The position numbers and the translations under genes were made by a program. From the IMG/VR virus record IMGVR_UViG_3300044858_002601, positions 1 through 31,325 of that record: DNA of 31,325 bases; one strand, 5' to 3'. The stretch is from a virus. This document shows positions 1,206 through 27,288 of this stretch, one piece after another. The notes below the pieces were generated by a model that did no database searches, had not been told where the DNA came from, and was given only the letters and a program-made list of their open reading frames with translations. The first letter of the stretch is position 1. Each line of letters begins with the position of its first letter.

Positions 1206-2402
1206 ATGACACAAGCATTACTAGAAAGCCGTTGGGGCGATACTAAAGACGCTCTGTTAGAAGGCTTAAACGGTTCCAAGAGAACCACAATGGGTGTAAT
1301 CCTCGAAAACACTCGCAAGCACTTGATGGAAGCAGCTACAGCTGGTGCTACAGCCGCTTCAAACGTTGCAACACTAAACCGAGTCATTCTACCAGTGATT
1401 CGTCGTGTTATGCCAACAGTTATTGCAAACGAAATCGTTGGTGTTCAGCCAATGACTGGACCTGTTGCACAGATCCACACATTGCGTGTTCGTTATGCAG
1501 ACAACACCACTGATACCGCTAGCCCATACGCTACTGGTACTACAGCCGGTGATGAAGCACTAAGCCCATTTAAGATTGCTGTTGCTTACTCTGGTCTAAC
1601 TTCAGGTGGTACAGCTACAACCGGTAAGGCAGCTACTACTTCTACTCTAGAAGGTGTACCTGGTAACCGTATCAATGTACAAATCTTAAAGCAAGTTGTA
1701 GAAGCTAAGACTCGTAAGTTATCAGCTCGCTGGACTTTCGAAGCTGCACAAGATGCACAAGCTATGCACGGTCTTGATATCGAAGCTGAAATCATGGCTG
1801 CTCTAGCACAAGAAATTACCGTTGAAATCGACCAAGAGATCCTAGGTTCTCTACGCTCGTTGGCTGCTACCGAATTCACATTCGACCAAGCTGCTGTTAG
1901 CGGTACTGCTACATTCGTTGGTGACGAACATGCTGCACTAGCTGTTCTAATCAACCGTACAGCAAACCTAATCGCTTCACGTACACGTCGTGGCGCTGGT
2001 AACTGGGCAGTAGTAAGTCCAGCAGCTCTAACTGTACTACAAAGCGCAACCACTTCAGCATTTGCTCGTACAACTGAAGGTACCTTTGAAGCTCCTACCA
2101 ACACCAAGTTTGTTGGTACACTAAACGGCGCAATGCGTATCTATGTTGACAGCTATGCTAGCGATAGCCAGGCTGTTCTAGTTGGTTATAAGGGCTCAAG
2201 CGAGGCTGATGCAGCCGCGTTCTACTGCCCATATATTCCTCTAATGAGTTCTGGTGTTGTTCTAGATCCTAGCACATTCGAACCAGTAGTAGGCTTTATG
2301 ACCCGTTATGGTTATGTTGAGTTAACAAACACAGCATCATCGTTCGGTAACGCAGCTGACTACCTAGGTGAGATTGCTGTTTCTAACCTATCGTTCCAGT
2401 AA
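1206..2402 (+). CDS. 23: Major capsid protein, gp23-like
   Basis: This 398-residue protein forms the hexameric lattice of the T4-type head. The N-terminal half carries recognisable gp23 features: a run of the type RRVMPTVIANEIVGVQPM (about residues 66-84), then GPVAQIHTLRVRY, and a later conserved segment NWAVVSPAALTVLQ. The stretch KHLMEAATAG has Leu-Met-Glu before Ala43, matching the (L/I)-X-Glu cleavage preference of T4-type prohead proteases, so residues 1-42 are probably removed in maturation. At 398 residues it is shorter than T4 gp23 (521), suggesting trimmed surface insertions. It follows the scaffold gene and is closed by a strong hairpin terminator, fitting very high expression. The start ATG follows AGGAGAAAAGGAA. 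Confidence 0.95.
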   Translation: MTQALLESRWGDTKDALLEGLNGSKRTTMGVILENTRKHLMEAATAGATAASNVATLNRVILPVIRRVMPTVIANEIVGVQPMTGPVAQIHTLRVRYADNTTDTASPYATGTTAGDEALSPFKIAVAYSGLTSGGTATTGKAATTSTLEGVPGNRINVQILKQVVEAKTRKLSARWTFEAAQDAQAMHGLDIEAEIMAALAQEITVEIDQEILGSLRSLAATEFTFDQAAVSGTATFVGDEHAALAVLINRTANLIASRTRRGAGNWAVVSPAALTVLQSATTSAFARTTEGTFEAPTNTKFVGTLNGAMRIYVDSYASDSQAVLVGYKGSSEADAAAFYCPYIPLMSSGVVLDPSTFEPVVGFMTRYGYVELTNTASSFGNAADYLGEIAVSNLSFQ

Positions 2403-2427
2403 TTTTCCACTCGGGATGGGAAACATT

Positions 2428-2450
2428 AAAGGGCCGCAAGGCCCTTTTTT
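2428..2450 (+). terminator. Rho-independent terminator after gp23
   Basis: AAAGGGCC (2428-2435) pairs perfectly with GGCCCTTT (2440-2447) around a GCAA (GNRA) tetraloop, followed by more T. It sits 26 bases after the capsid stop codon. The loop and closing pairs (CCGCAAGG) are identical to those in the next terminator at 2753. Confidence 0.93.
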
Positions 2451-2469
2451 GTTGGCTGTGTTTTTGCAC

Positions 2470-2523: not shown

Positions 2524-2751
2524 ATGAGCAAAACACCATACGAGATTCGTCTTGAACTTTTACATCTAGCACAATCTATTCTACAAACTCCGGTTTATCA
2601 AACTCGAGAAGCAAAAGTTAATGAATATCATTCAAAATTAACTGATGCTAATCGTGGAACTATTCCGTATCCAACCTTGCCAGATTTTCCAAGTACTACG
2701 GATATTATCAGCAAAGCTGAGGAACTGAAGAAGTTTGTAGACCAAGCGTAA
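2524..2751 (+). CDS. Small conserved-type phage protein of unknown function (75 residues)
   Basis: The start is placed at the ATG of MSKTPYEIRLELLHLAQSIL because a near-perfect AAGGAGGT ribosome binding site (2512-2519) precedes it. A longer reading frame from 2368 would run back across the capsid terminator and promoter and is rejected. The N-terminal third is a predicted amphipathic helix, the middle is Pro/Thr-rich, and the C-terminus is helical (SKAEELKKFVDQ). No enzyme motif, signal peptide or membrane segment is seen. The general style (TPYEIRLELL) recalls small hypothetical proteins of T4-like marine phages, but I cannot name it. It is a self-contained unit with its own late box, strong binding site and terminator, which suggests an abundant late protein, perhaps a virion or assembly accessory. 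Confidence 0.85.
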   Translation: MSKTPYEIRLELLHLAQSILQTPVYQTREAKVNEYHSKLTDANRGTIPYPTLPDFPSTTDIISKAEELKKFVDQA

Positions 2752-2752
2752 T

Positions 2753-2776
2753 AAAAGCGCCGCAAGGCGCTTTTTT
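2753..2776 (+). terminator. Rho-independent terminator after the 75-residue gene
   Basis: AAAAGCGCC (2753-2761) pairs with GGCGCTTTT (2766-2774) around GCAA, followed by more T. It begins immediately after the stop codon and ends only 18 bases before the next start codon, leaving almost no room for a promoter for the downstream island. Confidence 0.92.
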
Positions 2777-2794
2777 GTTGGATAAGTAATTTGT

Positions 2795-3499
2795 ATGAAA
2801 CGACTTCTAGTAGCGTTTGGAGACAGTTGGACTTTTGGCTCTGAACTGGACAAACCTCAAGTTGATGCATGGCCACAGTTGATTGCAAATAAAATGGCGG
2901 ATAAATTATTAAATTTAGGAACTCCGGCTAGCTCCATTGGACATTTATCAGTTCAACTTTTTAATTTTTTGGATCAATATCCTAACTACAAAGATTATCA
3001 AACAATCTTTATGGTAGGATTAACTGCACAATCAAGGTATCTTAGCTATTCAAATGCATCTGATGAGTTTGTAAATATCACTACGGAAGCGGTTTATAGT
3101 ACAAGTGATATTAAATCCACAGGAGAACCACCAGAAGATATAGGACATCTATCAGGGGTAAAAGAATTACATTATAGATTAGTTGATCATTCAAATTATT
3201 CAGAATTTCTAGCAGCACAGACTATTTTTTTATTTCAACAGGTTGCAAATAATTACTGTATAGACACTTTATTTTTCAGTTATTTTAATGAAATAAATTT
3301 ACAAAAATATAGTTTTATTGACCAGCACTGCATTTTGCCTACTACAATTACAAAAACACTTACCGGTCAAGAATATAAAATACCTGACATAAGAGACAAT
3401 GTTTATTTTAAAAACAAATTGTTTCATCCAAATGAACAAGGACATCAAGCAATAGCAGATTTATTATTGGATTTCTATGAGAAAAATTACAATCATTGA
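2795..3499 (+). CDS. SGNH/GDSL-hydrolase-like protein (first copy)
   Basis: This 234-residue protein opens with a beta strand leading to GDSWTFGSE, the block I motif of SGNH (GDSL-like) esterases, with Ser11 as likely nucleophile. Near the C-terminus FHPNEQGHQAIADLL gives the block V His (His211) followed by the usual helix. The Asp normally three residues before this His is replaced by Lys208, and no clear GxND block III is visible, so a Ser-His dyad or altered activity is possible. SGNH enzymes hydrolyse esters such as O-acetyl groups on sugars; the substrate here is unknown. There is no signal peptide, so it would act in the host cytoplasm or on assembled virions. It overlaps the following GT-like gene by 23 bases, implying translational coupling, and is A+T-rich compared with gp22 and gp23. 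Confidence 0.72.
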   Translation: MKRLLVAFGDSWTFGSELDKPQVDAWPQLIANKMADKLLNLGTPASSIGHLSVQLFNFLDQYPNYKDYQTIFMVGLTAQSRYLSYSNASDEFVNITTEAVYSTSDIKSTGEPPEDIGHLSGVKELHYRLVDHSNYSEFLAAQTIFLFQQVANNYCIDTLFFSYFNEINLQKYSFIDQHCILPTTITKTLTGQEYKIPDIRDNVYFKNKLFHPNEQGHQAIADLLLDFYEKNYNH

Positions 3500-4481
3500 C
3501 GGTGTTGAGGGGTTTGATATTCCCTATCATCTTGAAATTTTAGGACATAAGGTTGAAGATATTCAAGATACATTCTTTGTTTCATTAAATGACCATTATG
3601 GTTTGCATACAGAAAGATGGGAGGAATTGGTAAAAAATACTGCGCAAGATTATGGCCGTGTAGTATTTTACGACTTAGTTAATCATGGCGATGAATATAT
3701 AGATAATTTCTGCAGTTTTATTAAAAATTTTTCTCATTCTAACAAATGGTATTTGACTAATAACTTTAGTAGCAATTTTTCATTAGAGAATGTTAATATA
3801 TTACCATGGGATTTTATGTGGAACAGATCCAAACTATATTATACTGACATCAATGAAGAATATGTAAGATCATTGAATTTAATACTACATCATTATGCGG
3901 GCAAAACTAGTTATATTTTAAATAACTTAGATGCTAATAGACCAAGAACTCGAACTTACTTAAATTTGTGTGGCAGAGGTTATGGATATAGACTAGACTT
4001 GTATTACTTCTTACAAGCATACGCTGACAAAGGATACAGCAGTATGCGTTCATTGGGTACCTACTTAGAGGACGATGATACTGCTGGCGCTTTTCGTCCT
4101 ATACCTAATAGCTTTTACGATGATACTTATCTAAGTGTTTATGTTGAAAGCAATTGTCAAAATAATAATTTAATTCATATTACAGAAAAAACATTTGAAC
4201 CTTTGTTAAAAGGTCATTTTATTATGCCATTTGCTAATTCAGGAACTATACAAAGATTGCGTGATTTAGGATTTCGCTTTCCTGATTTTATAGATTACTC
4301 GTACGACACAATAGATGATGTGCGTTGGAGATTTGCTGTATTTCAAAAATTAGTAAAAGACACACTTCAACTTCCGTGGGCTAAATTGTACCAAGATAAT
4401 TTTGATATAATTGAACATAATCGCAATCAATTGTATAATTTAGACTATGATAGATCAATATTGAAACTTTATGATGAATGA
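3477..4481 (+). CDS. Putative GT10-like (fucosyltransferase-fold) glycosyltransferase, first copy
   Basis: The 334-residue protein has, in its C-terminal half, a segment typical of alpha-1,3-fucosyltransferase-like (GT10-type) C-terminal domains: LSVYVESNC, then ITEKTFEPLLKG (ITEK at residues 235-238), then a strand and RLRDLGFRFPDF. In the known family this region binds the nucleotide sugar, and the Ser/Thr-Glu-Lys motif is conserved. The N-terminal half is divergent and may bind the acceptor. No membrane segment is seen. It is wedged between two SGNH-like genes, overlapping the first by 23 bases and the second by 11, so the four genes are probably translated as one coupled set. The donor and acceptor cannot be told from the sequence. 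It could also be a degenerate member without activity. Confidence 0.62.
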   Translation: MRKITIIDGVEGFDIPYHLEILGHKVEDIQDTFFVSLNDHYGLHTERWEELVKNTAQDYGRVVFYDLVNHGDEYIDNFCSFIKNFSHSNKWYLTNNFSSNFSLENVNILPWDFMWNRSKLYYTDINEEYVRSLNLILHHYAGKTSYILNNLDANRPRTRTYLNLCGRGYGYRLDLYYFLQAYADKGYSSMRSLGTYLEDDDTAGAFRPIPNSFYDDTYLSVYVESNCQNNNLIHITEKTFEPLLKGHFIMPFANSGTIQRLRDLGFRFPDFIDYSYDTIDDVRWRFAVFQKLVKDTLQLPWAKLYQDNFDIIEHNRNQLYNLDYDRSILKLYDE

Positions 4482-5361
4482 TATTTTTGATATTTTGAAA
4501 ACAAAAACAGTTTACCCAATCATTGGCACTGATGTAGAACTTTCTTGGCTACACCAAGAAAATAACAGTAAAGACACTTTGTTAATTACAGTAGGGGACA
4601 GTTGGACATGGGGAGACCATTTAGGAAGCATAAATTGGATAACTCAGTACGATGACCCTGTAAGGTTGCAGACAATCTACGGAAAAAAACTTTCTGAAAA
4701 ATTAGATTCTGATTGGATATTATTAGCTAGACCTGGGTGTAGCAATTATTGGATGTTTGAAAAATTAAAGTTTTTTTCTGAGCAAATAGCGCAATTAAAA
4801 TCTCGTTATCGAAGAATAATTATTACTGTTACACTCACAGAAGATTTTAGAGAATTTGGGTATAATGATGAAGAGGAATATACAGTGCCTTATAACTCAA
4901 TGATATCTAATTCTAAAGATTTGTTTGATTTTTTAGCTCAAGCAGAAGATTTGTTACTTGAAAAATTTGTAAACTTGTTACAAGGCTTGGAAGTAGAATA
5001 TTATATTACTAGAGCGTTTACTGATTTTTGGCCAAAAAATAAAGACTCTTACAAACAACAGTTGCTAGATAAAACTTGGTGCGATGTATTTCAAAATCAA
5101 GTAGAGTTTGATCGATATTATCAAGTGGTGCCTTTTATTGGTCAAATGGCCATTGGCGGTATTACAAAATTAATTGATTCTGCAGGAGATAGAAAAGACA
5201 TTTTCAAAAATAATTTTTTAGATATTGAAACAAAGATAACAGCAAGATATAATTTTTTTGCAGCTAGCTGGTACAATATTAAGGGTAGTTCGTGTCACCC
5301 TAATGCAATGGGACACGAAATATTTGCAGATTATTTGTATGAAAAAATAAAGTCAAAATGA
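4471..5361 (+). CDS. SGNH/GDSL-hydrolase-like protein (second copy)
   Basis: The 296-residue protein carries GDSWTWGDHLGS with Ser44 as likely nucleophile, after about 35 extra N-terminal residues compared with the first copy. The C-terminal block V is SSCHPNAMGHEIFADYL with His276. As in the first copy the Asp at minus three is missing (Ser273), suggesting both belong to the same subgroup with a Ser-His dyad. The two are clearly related in block I and block V but very diverged between, so any duplication is old or the two were acquired separately. A Trp follows the nucleophile in both. Two tandem ATG codons (4471, 4474) are possible starts; both overlap the upstream gene. It shares ATGA with the next gene. 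Substrate unknown; sugar O-acyl groups are an inference. Confidence 0.7.
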   Translation: MMNDIFDILKTKTVYPIIGTDVELSWLHQENNSKDTLLITVGDSWTWGDHLGSINWITQYDDPVRLQTIYGKKLSEKLDSDWILLARPGCSNYWMFEKLKFFSEQIAQLKSRYRRIIITVTLTEDFREFGYNDEEEYTVPYNSMISNSKDLFDFLAQAEDLLLEKFVNLLQGLEVEYYITRAFTDFWPKNKDSYKQQLLDKTWCDVFQNQVEFDRYYQVVPFIGQMAIGGITKLIDSAGDRKDIFKNNFLDIETKITARYNFFAASWYNIKGSSCHPNAMGHEIFADYLYEKIKSK

Positions 5362-6464
5362 AAAATTACTATTACGACTATTTGGAATGTAATTTCAAGG
5401 ACAGTTCACCTGTAATAACAGAATGGGTGCAAAAAAATAATATTGCAATGTTTGACTTTGATAATTGCATGTTTGATAATGAATTTGATAAAAACTTATT
5501 CGATCATTTAAAATGGGTAAAAGATACAGCATCATTGTTAATTGTAGTAGAAAGTCATCCGTTTTTTTCAAATGACTCAATTTATGAGCAAAGAAAAAAT
5601 GCTATAATTAACTACGCAAATGAGTTAAATTTACAGTATGGTTTTTTTACTAGCGATTATAAGTTGTGGCTAGATGACAATGACTCCAAAACAACATTTC
5701 ACCCAGACTGGTACTTTAGACAAAAAAAATGGGCAAAAGATAATAGATATCCAGAGTACACATTTAATGTGGAACGCAAGTATAGTTTTGCATGCGGCAA
5801 CAAATCAAATTATAGAACTGAAAAAATATACAACTACATAGAGTGTTACCGCAAACGCAGGTCAGATTGGCTAATAACAATTTACAAGCATCAACATTTG
5901 GATGTTAATGTGGTTGATGGGTTCCGTGTGCCTAGTTTAAGTACCGAGCAAGCTGAAATATGGAATAACGAAATTAGAAATAATATTCCTTTTTATGAAT
6001 ATGATTATGATAGATTTGAAACTTACGATAATCCACATAGTACATTATTTCCAGTACACACAAATTCTTATTGCAATTTAGTAATGGAACATACTATGGA
6101 GGTTCCTATACTGTCAGAAAAAAGTTACAAGTGTTTTATAGCAAAACAGATACCGGTTTATCTAGCAGCAGTTCGCACAGCTGAAGCTTTACAATATTTG
6201 GGGTTTGATTTGTTTTATGATTTCGTTGATCATGCAAAATACGATAATTTGCAAGTAAACAACTGGCGGGTACCAGAAAACTTTACCATGCGTATTGACC
6301 GTGTACATCAGCTAATAGATGAGTTATACAAAACAGATTTCACAGAGTTCTTTCATAGGCCAGAAACACAACAAAGATTACAGGCCAATCAAGATTACTT
6401 TTATAGCGATGCAATTGATCATATCTGTATCAAGCATTATAATCAATTACTGAATAAATACTAA
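5358..6464 (+). CDS. Putative GT10-like glycosyltransferase, second copy
   Basis: The 368-residue protein resembles the earlier GT-like protein in its C-terminal domain: SYCNLVMEHT, then ILSEKSYKCFIAKQIPVYLA (Leu-Ser-Glu-Lys at residues 252-255), then EALQYLGFDLFYDFVDH. This is the pattern of GT10-like C-terminal nucleotide-sugar binding domains. The N-terminal part begins with an acidic alpha/beta region and an aromatic-rich middle (HPDWYF, KYSFACGNKSNYRTEK). It starts at the ATG of an ATGA overlap with the second SGNH-like gene, typical of coupled translation. The stop codon overlaps a late promoter box, so this gene ends the island. Donor, acceptor and activity are unknown. The fold assignment is by motif only. 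Confidence 0.6.
   Translation: MKNYYYDYLECNFKDSSPVITEWVQKNNIAMFDFDNCMFDNEFDKNLFDHLKWVKDTASLLIVVESHPFFSNDSIYEQRKNAIINYANELNLQYGFFTSDYKLWLDDNDSKTTFHPDWYFRQKKWAKDNRYPEYTFNVERKYSFACGNKSNYRTEKIYNYIECYRKRRSDWLITIYKHQHLDVNVVDGFRVPSLSTEQAEIWNNEIRNNIPFYEYDYDRFETYDNPHSTLFPVHTNSYCNLVMEHTMEVPILSEKSYKCFIAKQIPVYLAAVRTAEALQYLGFDLFYDFVDHAKYDNLQVNNWRVPENFTMRIDRVHQLIDELYKTDFTEFFHRPETQQRLQANQDYFYSDAIDHICIKHYNQLLNKY
6453..6462 (+). promoter_or_regulatory. T4-type late promoter box
   Basis: AATAAATACT overlaps the last codons of the second GT-like gene and lies 81 bases before the ATG of the 163-residue structural gene. It matches the late box found at 2470 and elsewhere. The resulting leader would be the longest in the window and contains a short inverted repeat, CTCTA/TAGAG, at 6470-6483, of unknown meaning. 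Confidence 0.65.
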
Positions 6465-6543: not shown

Positions 6544-7035
6544 ATGGCAAGAGGTTTAAAAATCAGTCATGAAAGAAGTGATGGCACATTAGTTGATCAA
6601 GAAGTTAGCACAACAATTAGTAGTATTGGTGCAACTGGTGGTCGTCCACAATGGGTAACAGTTGAAGGTGTTAAAACTGTTAAAGTTCAATTTAGAGATT
6701 CTGCGGGAATTTTGCATGCTAACGCATACATTATTGCTCAAAAAGGTGCCAAACAGTTTATGGTAGCAAATGCAGTTGGTGCAACTGAAAGTCATACCCA
6801 CAGTAATGCCAGCGTTACTATTTGCACACTGGCAGCAGGTGCAGATGCGGCCAATGGAACTCCTAGCTCAACAGCAAGTACAATGAGCATTGCCGGATAT
6901 ACCACAGCAAGTGCAGCATTTTATGCAAGTAGAATTTCCAACAAATTTGTTTGGGATCAAAGCAACAATCGCTACAGATATCGTAACAGTGATAATGTGG
7001 CAACTGCAACTTTTGCCAATGTGTTTGTGCATTAA
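6544..7035 (+). CDS. Virion structural protein candidate, unknown (163 residues)
   Basis: The start follows TAAGGAG at the right distance. The protein is beta-rich, Ala/Ser/Thr/Asn-rich and soluble, with no signal peptide or membrane segment. Its N-terminal part (residues about 8-75) alternates hydrophobic strands, ending in AYIIAQKGAKQFMVAN. The middle is a low-complexity Ser/Thr/Ala/His stretch (SHTHSNASV and following). The C-terminal part ends in FVWDQSNNRYRYRNSD and a final strand. It forms its own transcription unit with a late box upstream and a UUCG terminator downstream, suggesting high expression as a virion component. I do not recognise a named family. It lacks the TGAL and GNITT modules of the fibres that follow. 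Confidence 0.85.
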   Translation: MARGLKISHERSDGTLVDQEVSTTISSIGATGGRPQWVTVEGVKTVKVQFRDSAGILHANAYIIAQKGAKQFMVANAVGATESHTHSNASVTICTLAAGADAANGTPSSTASTMSIAGYTTASAAFYASRISNKFVWDQSNNRYRYRNSDNVATATFANVFVH

Positions 7036-8269: not shown

Positions 8270-10711
8270 GTGGCTATTGGCAGAATAAGCGGCGCACTTC
8301 TATTTTCAGACCTAGATAGACAAAGTGTTGATCTTGCATTTACTACAAATAGCAAGCCGCTTACCTACATGGACTTCACCAACTTTAGATTTGGTGTTAA
8401 TACCAATTCTTTAGTTGATACTTTTACTGTCAATGGCACTGCCAATGTTTCCGGAATAACACGAGTATTTGGAAATCTTGTGGCGGCATCGGGAGTCGAA
8501 GCTTATGATGTAACCACAGGGGCATTCAATGTAGTAGGGGGTGCTGGTGTTTCTGGAAACCTATATGCAGGTAATATATTTGCTACCAATTTTAGTGGTA
8601 ATATTTCAAACACTGGCGGAACATCAACATTTGCAAATCTAGAAGTAACCGGAGCGGCTGTACTTGGCTCAATGAGTACAGCCAACGCGGTTATAAGTGG
8701 TGGTTATATAAGTGCATTGGCCAATGCCACAATAGCAACTGGTAATCTTTTGAGTCTGTATGCAACTAATTTAAACTCCACTGAGGCGAATTTAACAACT
8801 TTAAATGCTCAAAATTTCAGCACAGGCAACGCAGTAATATCAGGTGGCTACATTTCTAATCTAGCCAATGCTTACATTACCACAGCTAATATTGTAAACT
8901 TTAGTACAGGCAACGCAGTAATATCAGGTGGTTATATATCAGCACTTGCTAATGCTACAATTACAACAGGTAATGTTGTTTCGTGGTATACAACTAATTT
9001 AAACGCAACTACAGGTAATATTACAACACTAGATGCAGGAACAACAACCACAACGATACTGAATTCTACAACTGGTAACATTACAACTTTAGATACCAAT
9101 ACAACAACTACAGCAGTATTAAATGTTACAACAGCTAATATCACCACTGGTAATGCAGGCACATGGTATGCAACCAACTTAAATTCAACTACAGGAAATA
9201 TAACGACCTTAAATGTAGATACCACTACCTCTACTAATCTAAATGCCACAACTGGTAATATAACCACATTAGATACACAAACAACAACAAGTGCTATCCT
9301 AAATGCTACTAACGGAAATATAACTACACTCGATGCACAAACGACAACAAGTGCTATCCTAAATGCTACTAACGGAAATATAACTACACTCGATGCACAA
9401 ACGACAACAAGTGCTATCCTAAATGCCACAACTGGTAATATTACCACAGGAAATACTCAAACTTGGTATGCAACTAACCTCAACAGCACCCAGGCAAATA
9501 TTACAAGTGGCAATGTTCAAATTTGGTACGCTGGCAATTTAAATTCTACCAATGGAAATATAACAACTTTAAATGCAGGCACCACTACCTCTACCAGCTT
9601 AAATGCCACAACTGGAAATATAACCACATTAGATACACAAACAACAACAAGTGCTATCCTAAATGCTAGTAACGGAAATATAACAACTTTAAATGCAGAA
9701 AGCACAACTTCGGCAGTTTTAAATTCTACATCGGCTAATGTTAGTACAATAGCAGCAGGAAATTTATCTACTGCCAATGCAGTAATTACTAGTGGCTATA
9801 TTAATAGTCTTGCCAATCTTTCTTCTACTCTTGGTGCTATCACTAACTTTAGTACAGGTAATGCATTAATTACAGGTGGTAATATTTCAGGCCTTGCTAG
9901 CGCAAATATAGCATCAGCTAATATTACAATTGCAAATCTTGGCAATATTCAAATTGAAAATGTAAGTGTTAAAAGTTTAACTGGAAACCTTGTTCTCTCC
10001 CCACTCCTTAGTAATAGTAATGCTGTAGTGGTTATTAATGGAACTAGTGCTTTGCAGTTACCATCGGGCACAACTGGCCAACAGCCAGCGGCTTATGCCG
10101 GTGCAATAAGATGGAACAATACTACAAACACAATTGAATATTACAGCGGCTCAACATGGATAAGTTTACTCAGCCAAATTAACAATCAAACTATTAGTCC
10201 AGATGGTACAAACATAAGTTATACACTAGACTATGCTGCCGCCGAAGAGGGTATAATTGTAAGTATTAACGGTACCTTGCAGGCACCTGGAACAGCTTAT
10301 ACTGTAGCCGGAACCACTATAACATTTGCTGAGATACCATTAATCACTGATATTATTTCAATACGATTTATTGCAGCTGGTACAACTACCGCCGAAAATG
10401 CTCAGGAAATCAATGCAGGAAATCTTGCACTTACTACCGGGGCGGTGTTAATTGATAGCTTTAATAAAGATATCTATAGAAGTTGTAAGTATATGGCAAG
10501 TACCACAGCAGATTCTGGAGATGCGGAATTTGCGGAATTTGCAGTAACTCAATTTGATCCAAATGTGGCAGTTAGTAATGTGAATAGAGCTATAACTGGT
10601 TCAACACTAGCAACAATCACAGCAAATATAAGCGGATCTTTAGTCAGGGTCTACGCAACATCAAGCTCATCTGCTCAGATGAGACTGCAAAAAACCTATT
10701 TTATAATCTAA
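8270..10711 (+). CDS. Tail fibre / virion structural protein with 20-residue repeats
   Basis: The 813-residue protein starts at a GTG behind AAGGAT. After an N-terminal segment (AIGRISGALLFSDLDRQSVDL) comes one TTGAFNVVGGAGVSGNLY module (about residue 83), then from about residue 140 to 580 a long set of approximately 20-residue repeats of the type LNATTGNITTLDTQTTTSAI, interspersed with FSTGNAVISGGYISNLAN. The regular spacing and Thr/Asn/Gly/Ser content suggest a beta-helical or beta-prism shaft, probably trimeric. Then follow the IRWNN...GSTW and SINGTLQAPGTAYTV modules and a C-terminal domain (about 728-813, with YRSCKY) shared with the 2063-residue fibre. Repeats of 60 bases are visible in the DNA. 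Role: long or side fibre; position on the virion unknown. Confidence 0.85.
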   Translation: MAIGRISGALLFSDLDRQSVDLAFTTNSKPLTYMDFTNFRFGVNTNSLVDTFTVNGTANVSGITRVFGNLVAASGVEAYDVTTGAFNVVGGAGVSGNLYAGNIFATNFSGNISNTGGTSTFANLEVTGAAVLGSMSTANAVISGGYISALANATIATGNLLSLYATNLNSTEANLTTLNAQNFSTGNAVISGGYISNLANAYITTANIVNFSTGNAVISGGYISALANATITTGNVVSWYTTNLNATTGNITTLDAGTTTTTILNSTTGNITTLDTNTTTTAVLNVTTANITTGNAGTWYATNLNSTTGNITTLNVDTTTSTNLNATTGNITTLDTQTTTSAILNATNGNITTLDAQTTTSAILNATNGNITTLDAQTTTSAILNATTGNITTGNTQTWYATNLNSTQANITSGNVQIWYAGNLNSTNGNITTLNAGTTTSTSLNATTGNITTLDTQTTTSAILNASNGNITTLNAESTTSAVLNSTSANVSTIAAGNLSTANAVITSGYINSLANLSSTLGAITNFSTGNALITGGNISGLASANIASANITIANLGNIQIENVSVKSLTGNLVLSPLLSNSNAVVVINGTSALQLPSGTTGQQPAAYAGAIRWNNTTNTIEYYSGSTWISLLSQINNQTISPDGTNISYTLDYAAAEEGIIVSINGTLQAPGTAYTVAGTTITFAEIPLITDIISIRFIAAGTTTAENAQEINAGNLALTTGAVLIDSFNKDIYRSCKYMASTTADSGDAEFAEFAVTQFDPNVAVSNVNRAITGSTLATITANISGSLVRVYATSSSSAQMRLQKTYFII
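9241..9440 (+). repeat. 60-bp in-frame tandem repeats in fibre gene
   Basis: Units begin at 9241, 9301 and 9361, with a partial one at 9421. The 60 bases 9301-9360 and 9361-9420 are identical, while the flanking units are diverged. A further related pair lies at 9601-9720. Each unit encodes 20 residues (NxTxGNITTLDxQTTTSAIL). Confidence 0.95.
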
Positions 10712-10771: not shown

Positions 10772-13700
10772 ATGGCCGTCACTAGGATTAAGAATAACCA
10801 GATTACAGATAGTACAATTACCTTTCAAAAAATTGCATCAGGCACGCTTGTTGGTAGCTTATTCAATGCAAATTTAACCCTTAATTCTAATGTCAGTATC
10901 AATGGAAATTTAAGCATTGCCGGTAATACTACCACGGTCAATTCAATTGATACCCTAGTTTCAGATAGTTTACTCACCCTAAATGCTGGTTATGTGGGTA
11001 TACCTTCATATGATGTTGGTTTGTTGTTCAATCGTGCATTAGGAACTCTAGGCAATTACGGTGGCGTCAATGCAGCTCTGGTATGGTCAGAATCCGACGG
11101 CGCTTTTATTGCTGTATTGACTACTGAAACAGGAACTACAGCCGGCACCATTAATAGAGCGTTCCAGGCCAACATGATTGTTGGTAATCTTACTGTTTCG
11201 AACGCAGTAACAGCACAGTCGGCCACAATTACTACACTCAATGCAACAAATACAAATCTTAGCGGGTTAACATCTACAGGTAATATTGTAGCGGCATCCG
11301 GCACAAATGCAACCAGCTTTGCTACAGGTGCCCTGGTTGTACCTGGAGGCGGTGGCGTTGGTATTACAGGCGCATTATATGTGCAAGGGCCAAGCAGTTT
11401 GCAAGGCAACATCAGCGCAGGCAATATTATATTAAGTGGTAACATCAATGTACCAGTTGGTGGCACATTCAGTAACACTGGTGTGTTCTTTGGTAATGCA
11501 GGTGGTATTGGAGCACTATATGCCGGTGTTTCGACATATACTGCCTTGCCTCATGTGGTATTACAATTGGCTGGAAACCTAGATACATACACTCAAGTTA
11601 ATTTTCAAAATATCAATAGTGGTGCTAGTGCGTCGACAGATTTTGTATTAACAGCCGACAACGGCGACGACGACAATGGTTATATCAATCTAGGCATTAA
11701 CTCAAGCACATTTGATGATCCGGCCTTTGCTGGTTATTACCCCAACGACGGTTATCTAATCATGCACGGCATTGAGCCAAGTACCGGCAATCTAAACATT
11801 CATTCACACAATCAGAACTCGGTAATAAAACTTATTGTGGGCGGATTTAGTGATGCCAATATTCGCGCAACCGTGTCCAAGACCGGTTTTAGAGTAAACA
11901 CCGCAACTGCAAGTACCTCATCATCTTCTGGTGCATTAATTGTAGACGGTGGTGTGGGCATTGGTGGCAACATTCATGCAGCAGCTATTAATGCTACACC
12001 CGTTGGTAACACAACACCAAGCACAGGTTCGTTTACTGATCTGACAGGAACTTACCTGACAGCAAGTACTGGAATGAGCACAGCCAATGCAGTCGTGACT
12101 GGTGGATACATACAAAATTTATCTAATATATCGGCCACAGATGGTAGTATTACTACTCTAGTTGCCACAAATGCTAGTACTGCAAATGCAGTTATCTCTG
12201 GTGGTTATATCAATAACCTATCAAACTTAACTGCTACCACAACACAGACTACAAACTTAAGTACTGGTAATGCAGTTGTTACTGGTGGTTATATTGACAA
12301 TACTCCAATTGGTCCTAATACAGCCAGTACTGGTAATTTTACTACTGCAAATGCTACATCTGTTGAAGCATATACGATTACTGCCGCTACAGTAAATTCT
12401 ACCACCGGAAATATCACTACTGTAACTGCTTCTAATGTTAGCACAAGTTCTTTATACACAGAAAATATTATTGTAACAGGTACCAGTGGTAATATCAGCG
12501 GTGTAGATGTCGTAAGTGCAAATACATTTGTTTTTGCAGCCAACGGTATTAACATTTTAACCAGTTTACAATCAACAGTTGATGCTCTTGATGCAAATGT
12601 AGGTGCGTATCAAATATATGCCAATGCCAATATTGGCACACTATTTTTAGGCAACATTAGTACCAATGCTAATTTAGGTGCATACCAAATTTATGCTAAC
12701 GCCAATGCAGCCAGTCAGCAAACTAAAATTGACAATATTGTTAGTCAAGCCAACGCAAACACCGCAGCGTACCTAACCATATACACAGGTAATATTAATG
12801 CAGATATTATAAGTGTTAATGTTGTAAATGCTAATAGTGGTAATATAACAACCCTAGTTGCAGACAACTTTAGCACTGCAAATGCAGCAATTACTGGTGG
12901 CGACATTTCTAATGTAAATGCTCAAATAAACAATTTTAGTACCGCCAACGCTTTAATCACTGGCGGGGTTCTAAATAATATTGATATACAGGCCAATAAC
13001 TTCAGCACTGCCAATGCAGTTGTTACTGGAGGTTATGCTCAAGGATTGGCAAATGTAACAGCCACAGATGGTGATTTTACAACCTTAGTTGCAGACAACT
13101 TTAGTACAGCCAATGCTATTATTACCGGCGGCAATATAACAATATTAACGCCAAGCGGATCAACTATTCCAAATTCGTATGTACAGGCAGACAAAGTTGA
13201 AGCTTACTTTGGTAATTTTGCCAATTTAGTCGCTTCTAATGTTGACTTAGACGGCAATTTTATTGGTAATGTTGTCTCGAGTAATGTGGAACTTACAGGT
13301 GGATACATTGATGCCATTATAATTGGTGCTAACACCGCTACTGCAGGAACATTTACACAATTAAATGCGGTTGATAGTACACTATCTGGCAATTTGCTTA
13401 TAAACAGCAATGTGGAGGCTGAGTCTCAATATACCGGTGCTCTAGTCGTTATAGGCGGTGCCGGTATAGGCGGAAACTTGTTTATTGGTGGTAACCTAAC
13501 TGTTTATGGCAACACCACTACCATTGATACTCAATCTTTAAATGTCAAAGATCTTAATATTACAGTTGCAGCTAATGCTACTACAGGTGCACAAGCCGAC
13601 GGTGCAGGTCTAACTGTAGCTGGCGCAAATGCCACACTGATATATGTAAATTCGCTAGATAGCTGGCAAGTCAATAAAAATCTTTATGGCATTGACACTA

Positions 13701-16700
13701 CCATGGTCAATGCCAATGTTACAACTGCTAACATTACCAATCTGAATACAGGAACCTTAACAGTTCCGACATTAAATGCAACATTTGCAAATGTTACCAC
13801 TGGCAATATAGACACCTTAAACACAGCTTCTGGAAATATCACTACCTTGGTGGCCGATAATTTCAGCAGTAGCAATACAGCGATAACAGGCGGATATGCA
13901 GATAATTTTCCAATTGGTGCAAACATTGCCAGTTCTGGAAACTTTACAAGCGCAAACACCAATATTTTGTCTGCATACACCAGCACCGCAACTGTTTTAA
14001 ATGCAACCAATGGTAATATCACAACATTAATAGTTGGCAATTTTAATACTGCCAATGCGGTTGTAACTGGTGGTTACATCAATGGCCTTGCCAATTTAAC
14101 TGCATCTAGCGCACATGCCACAGACTTCAGTACTGCCAATGCATTGATTACTGGCGGTGTATTAAACAATATAAATGTTCAAGCAAACAATTTTAGTTCG
14201 GGTAATGTGATTGTAACTGGTGGTTATATCAATGGCCTTGCCAATTTAACTGCCACCACAACACAAGCAACTAATTTTAGTACTGGCAATGCATTGATCA
14301 CTGGCGGTGTATTGAACAATATAAATGTTCAAGCAAACAATTTTAATACTGCCAACGCAGTTATTACTGGTGGTTACATCAACGACCTTGCTAATTTAAC
14401 TGCTACTACTGCACAAGCAACTAATTTTAGTACCGCTAACGCTTTAGTTACTGGTGGATACATTGATGGAGCACAAATTAACCCATTCAATGCGAACACG
14501 GGTAATTTCACCACAGCCAATGCAACTAGTGTCACAGCATATTCAATCACTGGTACCCAAGTCAATACAACAAACGGCAATGCAACAACTTTGGTTGCAA
14601 CAAACTTTAGTACAGCCAATGCAGTAATCACAGGCGGTTCTGTTGACGCTGTTGCAATTGGCGCAACCACGGCAGGTACTGGCAACTTTACCACTGCTAA
14701 TGCTACAACTGTAACTGCTTACAATGCAACTGTTACTGATCTAAATAGTACCAATGCCAATGCAACAACTTTTGTGGCCACAAACTTTAGCAGTGGTAAT
14801 GCAGTTATAAGCGGTGGATACATAAGTGCATTAACAAATGCGTATATCACAACTGGTCATATTACAAACTTTAGTACTGCCAATGCTGTCATAACTGGTG
14901 GATATGCAGATAACTATCCAATTGGTGCCAATACGGCAGCCCCGGGTTATTTTACAAATTTGGAAGCAAGTAATTCAACTAAAACAGCGACTTTAAATGT
15001 AACAGCGAATGTGTATCTAAGTCCGCAGTCGGGAGCTGCCACTGTAACAATAAATCCGTTAATTGGTGGAACAATTGACAGCGTATCAATTGGTCAAACT
15101 AACGCTGCCAATGTTTACGCTTCAAACTTTAGAACATCAACAAGTTTGTGGGCCGCTACCTCTGGACCTGTTTGGATCAGAGGTGGTACAGGCACAAGCG
15201 GAATTAACAATATTCCAATTGGCGCAGTAACGCCTAGCTCGGGCGTGTTTACAACTGTTAACGGTCAAACTGTTACAGGAACCGCTGTTAATAGTACAAA
15301 CGGTAATATCACGACCCTGGTAGCAACAAACTTTAGTAGCGGTAATATCTTTGTAAGTGGCGGGTATATTAGTGCATTGTCTAATGCTTATATTACACTA
15401 AGCCAAATCACAAACTTTAGCACAGGCAACGCCAGAATAACTGGTGGCTTCGCTGATAATTTCCCAATGGGAGCAAATACTGCCGCCACTGGTGCATTTA
15501 CTACCTTAACTGCTGCATCGTTGAATGGAGCAATAATTGGCAATGCGACACCGGCTGCTGGAACATTTACTGCATTAGCAGCTACCGGTAATTTAACTTT
15601 GGCCACTGGCAATGTAGTTATTAGTTCCGGTAATACAACTGTGTACACAGCCGCAGCGGGCATCGCAAATACAACTGGTGCCTTGGTTATTACTGGCACA
15701 GGTGGCGCAGCTATAAACGGTAATGTTTATATTGGGCAAGGCGCAGTAATCAACGGTAACAGAACCACAAACGATACTATAGTAAGAGGTGTAAATGAAA
15801 GAAGCTTGGTTTATGTTGCGGCAGACGCCACCTATGACCAGGTCAGCATTGGCGGTAATATCACTACAGCAAATATAACCCAAGGCGCAAAACTGGTAGT
15901 AAATTCTACAGATTCATTGATTATACCTGTAGGTACAACCGCGCAAAGACCAAGCGGCCAGGGTTACACTGATGTTGACGGCATGGTTCGATTCAACACC
16001 ACAACAGGAGAGCTAGAGTTCTACGGTGGCGGTCAATGGAATATCACCGGTGCAGTATTTACAGTCATACAGTCAAGAGTATTTGCCAATGTCAGTGGCG
16101 ATGTTTACGGTAATGTTGATGGCATCAACACACAATTTACACTAGGCAGTGACTCAACAACAGCAGCTACTATAGTTTCTATTAACGGCGTGATTCAGAT
16201 TCCAACTACTGCATATTCTGTTTCTGGAAATGTAGTTACCTTTACAGAAGCTCCAGCTGTTGGTGATACAGTTGACACCAGAGTGCTAACAACTACCGGC
16301 ACAGTAACTGGAGTAGCATCACTCAATGGATTTAATCAGTTCCAGGCTGACAGTGAAGCATTGAGATTTTACACCGGAAATGTAAGTTTAGGTAGCATTG
16401 AAAACTGGCGCATGGACACACATGGAGATTTCTATCCGGTAACCACTGCCAATCTAGGAACTCCTTCAAATCGAATTGATTATATATATGCAAGTAATGT
16501 CAATATCCAAGGTGGCACTATTACCGGAGCAGGGTTAAGTTCAGGAAGTTTAGATGATACCATAATTGGCGGTAATATCGCTAGAGCCGGTCACTTTACT
16601 ACCTTGTATTCTAATAGCACATTTACAACCAATGCCGAACATGTAACTGATGATGTGAGAGGTAAGTATGTTGCTCCTAGCGCAACAGATGCAGTTTTTG

Positions 16701-25783: not shown

Positions 25784-26518
25784 ATGTCATTTCCAATTGG
25801 TCCAGTTAATAATCAAACAACAGTTGTAAACGGTATTACCTATGTTTACAGTTCTGCAAATAATGCATGGACTAGAGTTACTGCTAATAATATCACTGTT
25901 ACTGGAAATGTTACAGCAAATAGGCTCGTTACTGAACAGGGTGTATTTTGGTCAGGCAATGGTGCTGCATTCAGTTCAGGCGGCGGCGGAAGTTATGGCA
26001 ATGTGGAACTTACTGCTAACTTATCAACTGGATTTACTGCAAGTATTGTTCCTGCTGCGAACTTGACTTACAGTCTAGGATCAGCCACAGCATGGTGGGA
26101 TACATTTTACGGTATATCAACTCAAGCCAGATATGCTGACTTGGCAGAAAATTATCAAGCCGACGACAATTATGACCCGGGTACTGTTTTATGTTTTGGT
26201 GGACCCAGCGAAGTCACAATTTCAACTGTATCTCATGACACAGCAGTGGCTGGCGTAGTTTCCACTAATCCTGCACATTTAATGAATGGAGCATTAAATG
26301 GTTCTAACGTTATACCGCTTGCACTACAAGGAAGAGTTCCGTGTCTTGTTAAAGGCCCGGTAAACAAAGGTACAGTTGTTGTTACAAGTAATATCGCAGG
26401 AGTGGCCCAAGCTCTTGATATGAGACACTATCAACCAGGATGTGTAATTGGTAAGAGCCTAGATATAATTCCAGATGACTCAATACAAAAAATTGAAGTA
26501 GTGGTTGGGAGATGTTAA
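25784..26518 (+). CDS. Short tail fibre with C-terminal ARYADLAENY domain
   Basis: The 244-residue protein follows the C1q fibre by nine bases behind AAGGAT. The N-terminal part (VNNQTTVVNGITYVYSSANNAWTRV, about 7-32) is a short carbohydrate-binding-style hairpin often seen at the head of phage fibre proteins. It is followed by a VFWSGNGAAFSSGGGG segment, a VPAANLTYSLGSATAWWDTFYG block, and the C-terminal domain from Ala115 (ARYADLAENYQAD, GTVLCFGG, VAGVVSTNPAHLMNG, LALQGRVPCLVKG, IEVVVGRC). The last domain is the same as that of the 421-residue fibre. It looks like a minimal version of that fibre. The final Cys is unusual beside the Met of its relative. Its stop codon shares one base with the next start. 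Confidence 0.84.
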   Translation: MSFPIGPVNNQTTVVNGITYVYSSANNAWTRVTANNITVTGNVTANRLVTEQGVFWSGNGAAFSSGGGGSYGNVELTANLSTGFTASIVPAANLTYSLGSATAWWDTFYGISTQARYADLAENYQADDNYDPGTVLCFGGPSEVTISTVSHDTAVAGVVSTNPAHLMNGALNGSNVIPLALQGRVPCLVKGPVNKGTVVVTSNIAGVAQALDMRHYQPGCVIGKSLDIIPDDSIQKIEVVVGRC

Positions 26519-27288
26519 TGACAGTAATACAAAAAATTTATAGAAAAGATATCTTGGCTGAATCTGTAAATTTAGTAGGATTATATATTGAAGATGAGTG
26601 GAAGTACCTGTCTGAAGATATTAATATTCCACAATTTCAGAATTTGTCAGAGCATGCTGTAGTTGTTGGTAACGGTATAACTGCTAATCAATTTGATCTC
26701 ACTAATTTCCTACCATACAGAGAATCTACACCTTGGGGAGCTGTTACCCCCTGGGTTTCAAAAAGGCAGCGAAGAAATTTCTTTACATACGGTTGCAATG
26801 CAATTTATAGAAATTTTAAGCTTGATTTTGTCTCGTGTACCGGGAAAGGCATTATTCAAGAAATTGCAGAAACCACGAGAGACAAAACAGGAACATTATT
26901 TTACGCTGGTTCAAAATATTTAGAACAGTATCCTGGCGAATTTAGTTTTCTACCACAGAATCCAGATTTTAACTCAGGAGCCATGTCAGCTTACATGGCT
27001 GCGTTTGATGGTCATAAAAGAATTTACATGTTGGGTTTTGACGGGATAGACTCGGTCAATGACAACTATAACATGTTTGCAGGAACTGATAATTATCCGG
27101 TATCAGATTACCCCACCAACGAAGAATATTGGGTACGCAGTCTCAACACCATAATGGAAGTGTATTCAGACGCTGAATTCATTAGAGTTTGCCCAACTAA
27201 AAACTTTAGACAACCAGATATGTGGAGAAATAATTTAAACTATAGACAAATTGATTTTAGACAATTTGTGTCTGAGGCTGACCTATAA
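26518..27288 (+). CDS. Putative glycosyltransferase, DUF115/GT42-like
   Basis: The ATG at 26518 is chosen over one at 26512 because GGGAG (26507-26511) is then six bases upstream; it overlaps the previous TAA by one base. The product is 256 residues. It has a Rossmann-like opening strand VVVGNG (about 48-53), a TYGCNAIYRNFKLDFVSC segment, and the signature SGAMSAYMAAFDGHKRIYML followed by GFDGID (about 153-178). This Ser-Gly...Ala...Gly...Ile-Tyr-Leu-x-Gly-x-Asp pattern is typical of DUF115 (MptE-like) and GT42 sialyltransferase-like proteins. Activity, donor and acceptor are unknown, and a non-glycosyl role is possible. It is the last gene of a fibre operon, so an acceptor on the fibres or host surface is a reasonable inference. 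It overlaps the oppositely transcribed Nudix gene by 32 bases. Confidence 0.6.
   Translation: MTVIQKIYRKDILAESVNLVGLYIEDEWKYLSEDINIPQFQNLSEHAVVVGNGITANQFDLTNFLPYRESTPWGAVTPWVSKRQRRNFFTYGCNAIYRNFKLDFVSCTGKGIIQEIAETTRDKTGTLFYAGSKYLEQYPGEFSFLPQNPDFNSGAMSAYMAAFDGHKRIYMLGFDGIDSVNDNYNMFAGTDNYPVSDYPTNEEYWVRSLNTIMEVYSDAEFIRVCPTKNFRQPDMWRNNLNYRQIDFRQFVSEADL

Follow-up and report, generated by a model that had tools for sequence, protein, structure and literature searches.

A recurring trio of predicted SGNH-type and glycosyltransferase-like genes behind the capsid gene of large T4-superfamily phages

The window analysed here, a virus contig of 31,325 bases, carries a cassette of four genes between its major capsid gene and its fibre genes. 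The first three of them, S1-G1-S2, form a unit that recurs in other phage contigs, and the fourth, G2, is a separate add-on. We give a probability of roughly 45% to the reading that the cassette encodes cytosolic enzymes which build an esterified or ester-trimmed glycan, the likeliest acceptor of which would be a virion protein. The conserved three-gene block, carried by large phages of the T4 superfamily that metagenomes have revealed, is newly defined, as is the glycosyltransferase-like family (G) to which G1 and G2 belong and which lacks any match in Pfam, NCBIfam or PHROGs.

The slot is anchored upstream by a gp23-type major capsid gene (1206..2402, plus strand; PHROG 138, E=8.7e-103). The capsid protein shares 68% identity with that of PA5oct and 69% with that of Vibrio phage 2.275.O, and its nearest annotated relatives belong to jumbo myoviruses, e.g. 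Vibrio phage 2.275.O, PA5oct, GAP32 and CBB. The capsid gene is followed by an intrinsic terminator, the first copy of a 31-nt repeat (2425..2455, plus strand), and by an ORF of 75 aa (2525..2751, plus strand) which is variably present in relatives. This ORF is flanked on its other side by a terminator-like second copy of the repeat (2751..2781, plus strand), which is 90% identical to the first, ends 13 nt upstream of S1 and is absent from the list produced by the terminator pattern scan. The cassette genes, all on the plus strand, are S1 (2795..3499, 234 aa), G1 (3477..4481, 334 aa; 23-nt overlap with S1), S2 (4471..5361, 296 aa; 11-nt overlap with G1) and G2 (5358..6464, 368 aa; 4-nt ATGA overlap with S2). 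The downstream anchor is the first gene of the fibre/virion module (6544..7035, plus strand), the family of which is represented by 47 slot ORFs in our census. ORF coordinates and flanking-gene matches bear out the original prediction of four overlapping genes between capsid and fibre genes (2795-6464), and the alternating S-G-S-G order is real in the window.

All four cassette genes are under purifying selection (dN/dS 0.08-0.21 in comparison to the sibling contig L002), indicating that they are real genes. Tblastn searches with S1, G1, S2 and G2 singly against annotated phages returned no matches, and a genome scan with S2 yielded a single hit, a partial one, on a contig of a Pelagibacter MAG.

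The trio was detected in at least 27 contigs besides the window according to the gene maps, a count which includes some viruses sampled twice; clustering at 90% resulted in 16 types of S1, 16 of S2 and 18 of G1. The S2 genes of three loci (L091, L092 and L095) were overlooked by the simple ORF picker used for the gene maps and were recovered by another scan. The recurrence of the gene order in other phages, a search for which had been suggested, was thus found in the form of S1-G1-S2, located directly 3' of the capsid gene in almost all contigs. Both overlaps, S1/G1 and G1/S2, are present in all 18 trio loci measured, the window included, and they persist together with the gene order while the proteins diverge to about 40-50% identity. 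Divergence is correlated between the trio proteins (rho 0.59 for S1-G1, 0.61 for G1-S2 and 0.39 for S1-S2), whereas the correlations with the divergence of the capsid protein are on the whole lower (rho 0.19-0.43); partial correlations within the trio, given the capsid protein, amount to 0.35-0.57.

Iterated profile searches revealed that S1 and S2 are homologous, though divergent, and that G1 and G2 are likewise homologous members of one family. Together with the A-B-A-B order, this homology would suit one of the two origins proposed in the original prediction, in which a single S-G pair was duplicated to give S1-G1-S2-G2. The G tree, which places G1 apart from G2 only weakly, tolerates a single G1+G2 clade (p-AU 0.40). 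In the S tree, however, S1 and S2 each belong to a clade of 16, and other SGNH proteins separate the two clades; forcing S1 and S2 into one clade was rejected (delta lnL 77.9, p-AU 0.0002), so that a duplicated two-gene unit is rejected for S. Moreover, G2 does not follow the trio in 22 of the 23 contigs that extend beyond S2, the exception being L002, and it occurs without the trio in five contigs (L004-L008), either alone or alongside other G genes. Duplication of the pair therefore retains a minimal likelihood.

S1 and S2 had been described as SGNH- or esterase-like from their motifs, and this assignment holds, although both proteins remain below the Pfam cut-off: S1 matches Lipase_GDSL (PF00657) with E=1.2e-4 and 22.8 bits, just under the cut-off of 23.6, and S2 with E=0.048 and 14.2 bits. 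Among 48 S relatives, 19 match PF13472 and 18 match PF00657 at E<=0.01. Profile comparisons give GDSL enzymes and CE2 esterases as the best relatives of solved structure (4rw0, E=9e-6; 2wao, E=7e-4). The catalytic serine of block I (GDS motif; Ser11 in S1) and the histidine of block V (His211 in S1) are conserved in all 48 relatives, and the aspartate preceding the serine in 46. The block II column contains glycine in 37 and alanine in ten of the 48, S1 being among the latter.

The S family departs from the SGNH superfamily in the column aligned as block III, where the asparagine is found in none of the 48 sequences and is replaced by threonine (40) or serine (8), followed four residues later by a near-invariant arginine (47/48), and in block V, where the aspartate three residues ahead of the histidine (DxxH) is retained in just three of the 48. 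Due to the lack of the block III asparagine and, mostly, of the block V aspartate, the activity of S1 and S2 is not assured. The block III asparagine is also missing from SASA, AlgX and some PC-esterase members, and a Ser-His dyad is known from the CE2 esterases (PMC9487903). Furthermore, proteins annotated as SGNH can act as sugar acyltransferases (PMC4555173), as does the mycobacterial octanoyltransferase OctT, which attaches an acyl group to a sugar within a glycan pathway and provides a precedent for S as a transferase. OctT differs from the S family in retaining all of the residues Ser, Gly, Asn, His and Asp. Taking these published relatives into account, the active-site pattern of S1 and S2 fits either a putative esterase or a putative acyltransferase, so that the ester trimming suggested in the original prediction is one of two candidate roles.

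Neither G1 nor G2 has a relevant Pfam match, and searches with 44 G relatives against Pfam, NCBIfam and PHROG returned isolated, chance-like matches only. The AF2 model of G2 comprises two domains (pLDDT 84.5, pTM 0.86), whereas that of G1, built from 5 sequences, has a pLDDT of 46. The top PDB matches of the G2 model in Foldseek are GT-B-type enzymes, but with TM-scores of only about 0.27-0.45; the matches include UDP-GlcNAc 2-epimerase, a glycosyltransferase of phage HY126 and, at rank 2, the H. pylori fucosyltransferase 2nzw (E=1.1e-3, TM-score about 0.29). An E-K motif is almost invariant in the family (E254 in 43 and K255 in 41 of the 44 relatives), and the (S/T)EK stretch containing it aligns with the C-terminal-domain motif of the fucosyltransferases 2nzw and 9s6a.

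This motif, the predicted GT-B fold and a marginal profile match to 2nzw (E=0.0096 with G profile A1, no match with the wider profile A7) are the present basis of the label "GT10-like" taken from the original prediction. The label stands in part: the GT-B-type matches of the G2 model and the alignment of the motif support a predicted GT-B glycosyltransferase for G2, while membership in GT10, the family of alpha-1,3-fucosyltransferases, was dropped, as a search of the window for PF00852 returned nothing up to E=10.

The Foldseek matches of G2 also include the T4 DNA alpha-glucosyltransferase at rank 15, which could indicate that the cassette glycosylates or hypermodifies the phage DNA. Phage glycosyltransferases have both DNA and virion targets, the DNA-modifying ones being covered by a reference given in the same source (PMC12619734). 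On the other hand, the cassette genes are situated in the structural block rather than beside replication genes, and the closer matches by fold and motif are sugar enzymes. To our knowledge, moreover, an SGNH partner has no role in phage DNA modification, and we regard this function as highly improbable.

That the two kinds of enzyme are connected is suggested by a natural S-G fusion protein of 608 aa in contig L127 (S domain, E=6.7e-60; G domain, E=1.5e-65). The fusion is also present in L128, which is identical to L127 over 15.2 kb, and it is therefore counted as one virus. In its S domain the fusion is sister to a stand-alone S gene of L130 which overlaps the next gene, a G, and its G domain groups with the G gene of L130 as well as with L129 and L136. 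In the loci holding both families, S has a G neighbour in seven of 13 cases, a modest excess over the shuffled mean of 3.9 (p=0.037) which includes one trio-bearing locus (L195). The fusion, the overlaps kept in every measured locus and the correlated divergence support the view that S and G are functionally linked, in line with the expectation that both activities are joined in glycan chemistry. The many different genes found in the slot might instead suggest that the four genes are unrelated morons that accumulated at a recombination hot spot without sharing a function; this seems decidedly unlikely given that an S-G fusion exists and that the order and overlaps of the trio have outlasted the divergence of its proteins.

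We propose that an exchangeable accessory cassette occupies a capsid-fibre hot spot of a large T4-superfamily phage, with the overlapping genes S1-G1-S2 as its core and G2 as a relative of G1 that would have been acquired separately. The predicted GT-B enzymes G1 and G2 would use a nucleotide sugar as donor and attach its sugar to an acceptor, and S1 and S2, as predicted Ser-His acyl-ester enzymes (acyltransferases or esterases), would act on the same glycan. All four proteins are expected to act in the cytosol, since neither a signal peptide nor a membrane segment was seen in any of them (highest Kyte-Doolittle mean over 19 residues, 1.13). Their position directly 3' of the capsid gene and 5' of the fibre genes suggests that they are probably expressed late, and the terminators ahead of S1 suggest expression by read-through at a level below that of the capsid gene; the T4 late-promoter motif TATAAATA does not occur in the window. 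The presumed cytosolic site and the late structural-gene position favour a virion protein of the head or the fibre as acceptor, the glycosylation of which would diversify the particle surface. A more specific version, namely an acylated virion glycan made by a new family of GT-B enzymes, which would glycosylate a virion protein, and by a pair of SGNH-type acyltransferases, which would esterify the glycan, all encoded in a capsid-linked exchangeable cassette, is in our view unlikely. If the virion is indeed the target, the question why phages sugar-coat themselves becomes testable in a new lineage.

In mycobacteriophages, glycans occur on capsid and tail proteins and phage glycosyltransferases are the likely makers (Freeman 2023, as referred to in PMC12619734). 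Other phages and other enzymes are concerned there, and the virion glycan proposed here is a prediction from the genes. We know of no SGNH partner in mycobacteriophage virion glycosylation.

The main alternative is that the enzymes alter, within the cytosol, precursors of the host's surface glycans (LPS, O-antigen or capsule), which could block rival phages or keep the progeny from sticking to debris. It is consistent with the wider relatives of S and G, which are found in phage sugar clusters next to genes for UDP-glucose dehydrogenase, epimerase/GDP-mannose dehydratase-type enzymes and carbamoyltransferase, a setting which likewise suits the glycan synthesis proposed above. Similar clusters of jumbo phages and cyanophages, likewise combining glycosyltransferases with sugar-modifying enzymes and occurring sporadically among relatives, have been interpreted, for jumbo phages, as modifiers of host polysaccharides (PMC7824862). 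What sets the cassette apart from them is the compact make-up of its S-G-S trio, the fixed place of the trio behind the capsid gene and the absence of sugar-nucleotide genes from the 31-kb window, and its presumably late expression would come too late for superinfection exclusion. A host target thus appears possible, but clearly less probable than a virion protein.

The slot itself is variable. The GC content drops from 39-47% in gp22, the capsid gene and the gene at 6544 to 31-32% in the cassette genes, and synonymous divergence from L002, which is 0.18 for the capsid gene and 0.31 for gp22, reaches 0.62-1.63 among the cassette genes; this jump suggests that the capsid gene has a recombination boundary at its 3' end. 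The distance between the capsid gene and the fibre marker ranges from 0.7 to 6.5 kb in the 35 capsid loci with a downstream fibre marker. At about 97-99% capsid identity the slot may hold the trio with G2, G2 alone or no such gene; in another state it contains three G genes and the 5' remnant of another G2. Capsid proteins of phages with and without the trio are up to 97% identical (L011), so that no acceptor signature is visible in the capsid protein. The site directly 3' of the capsid gene is a place to seek surface-diversifying genes in large T4-superfamily phages. Other genes detected in the slot are of the homing-endonuclease type or encode a fatty-acid desaturase, a radical SAM protein and a TPR-glycosyltransferase. 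The NUMOD3 motif is a mark of homing endonucleases, and in 23 of 76 capsid loci an ORF of a family bearing it begins no more than 400 bp from the capsid gene, making exchange driven by homing endonucleases a plausible cause of the turnover in the slot.

A short 5' remnant of a G2 gene (G2 being the second glycosyltransferase-like gene of the cassette) was detected in two other phage contigs (L007, 8718-8876; L008, 6852-7010; 42 aligned residues), in both cases 3' of three intact genes of the same G family, and is a trace of cassette turnover.

Directly behind the capsid gene of the window, a 75-aa ORF (2525-2751) is flanked on both sides by 31-nt terminator-like repeats (2425-2455 and 2751-2781), which are 90% identical to each other. 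Some relatives carry this ORF and others do not, as if it had entered via terminator-to-terminator exchange. A family of NUMOD3-bearing ORFs, which probably represent homing endonucleases, starts at most 400 bp 3' of the capsid gene in 23 of the 76 capsid loci (e.g. L012, 2836-3582).

The slot between capsid gene and fibre module is occupied in other phages by genes encoding a fatty-acid desaturase (L019, 4267-5145), a radical SAM protein (L081, 4477-5841) and a TPR-plus-GT9-like protein (L062, 2435-3592). Fifteen relatives, all shorter, of a 258-aa protein encoded at 26512-27288 of the window (PHROG 30607, E=4e-10; weak match to a sialyltransferase PHROG, E=0.01) are also located there, directly 5' of the fibre module.

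In L168-L173 a G domain is part of 591-aa proteins (e.g. L172, 6675-8447), fused to an N-terminal part matching the transketolase pyrimidine-binding domain (E=4e-6); a carbamoyltransferase gene adjoins their genes. Genes encoding S1-like SGNH enzymes are adjacent to a Toprim (primase-like) gene in L198, L206 and related loci of other phages, and in L198 also to a DnaB-like helicase gene.

The long minus-strand ORFs opposite the repetitive fibre genes of the window (8932-9777 and 11056-15699) are probably a by-product of the codon bias of the repeats.
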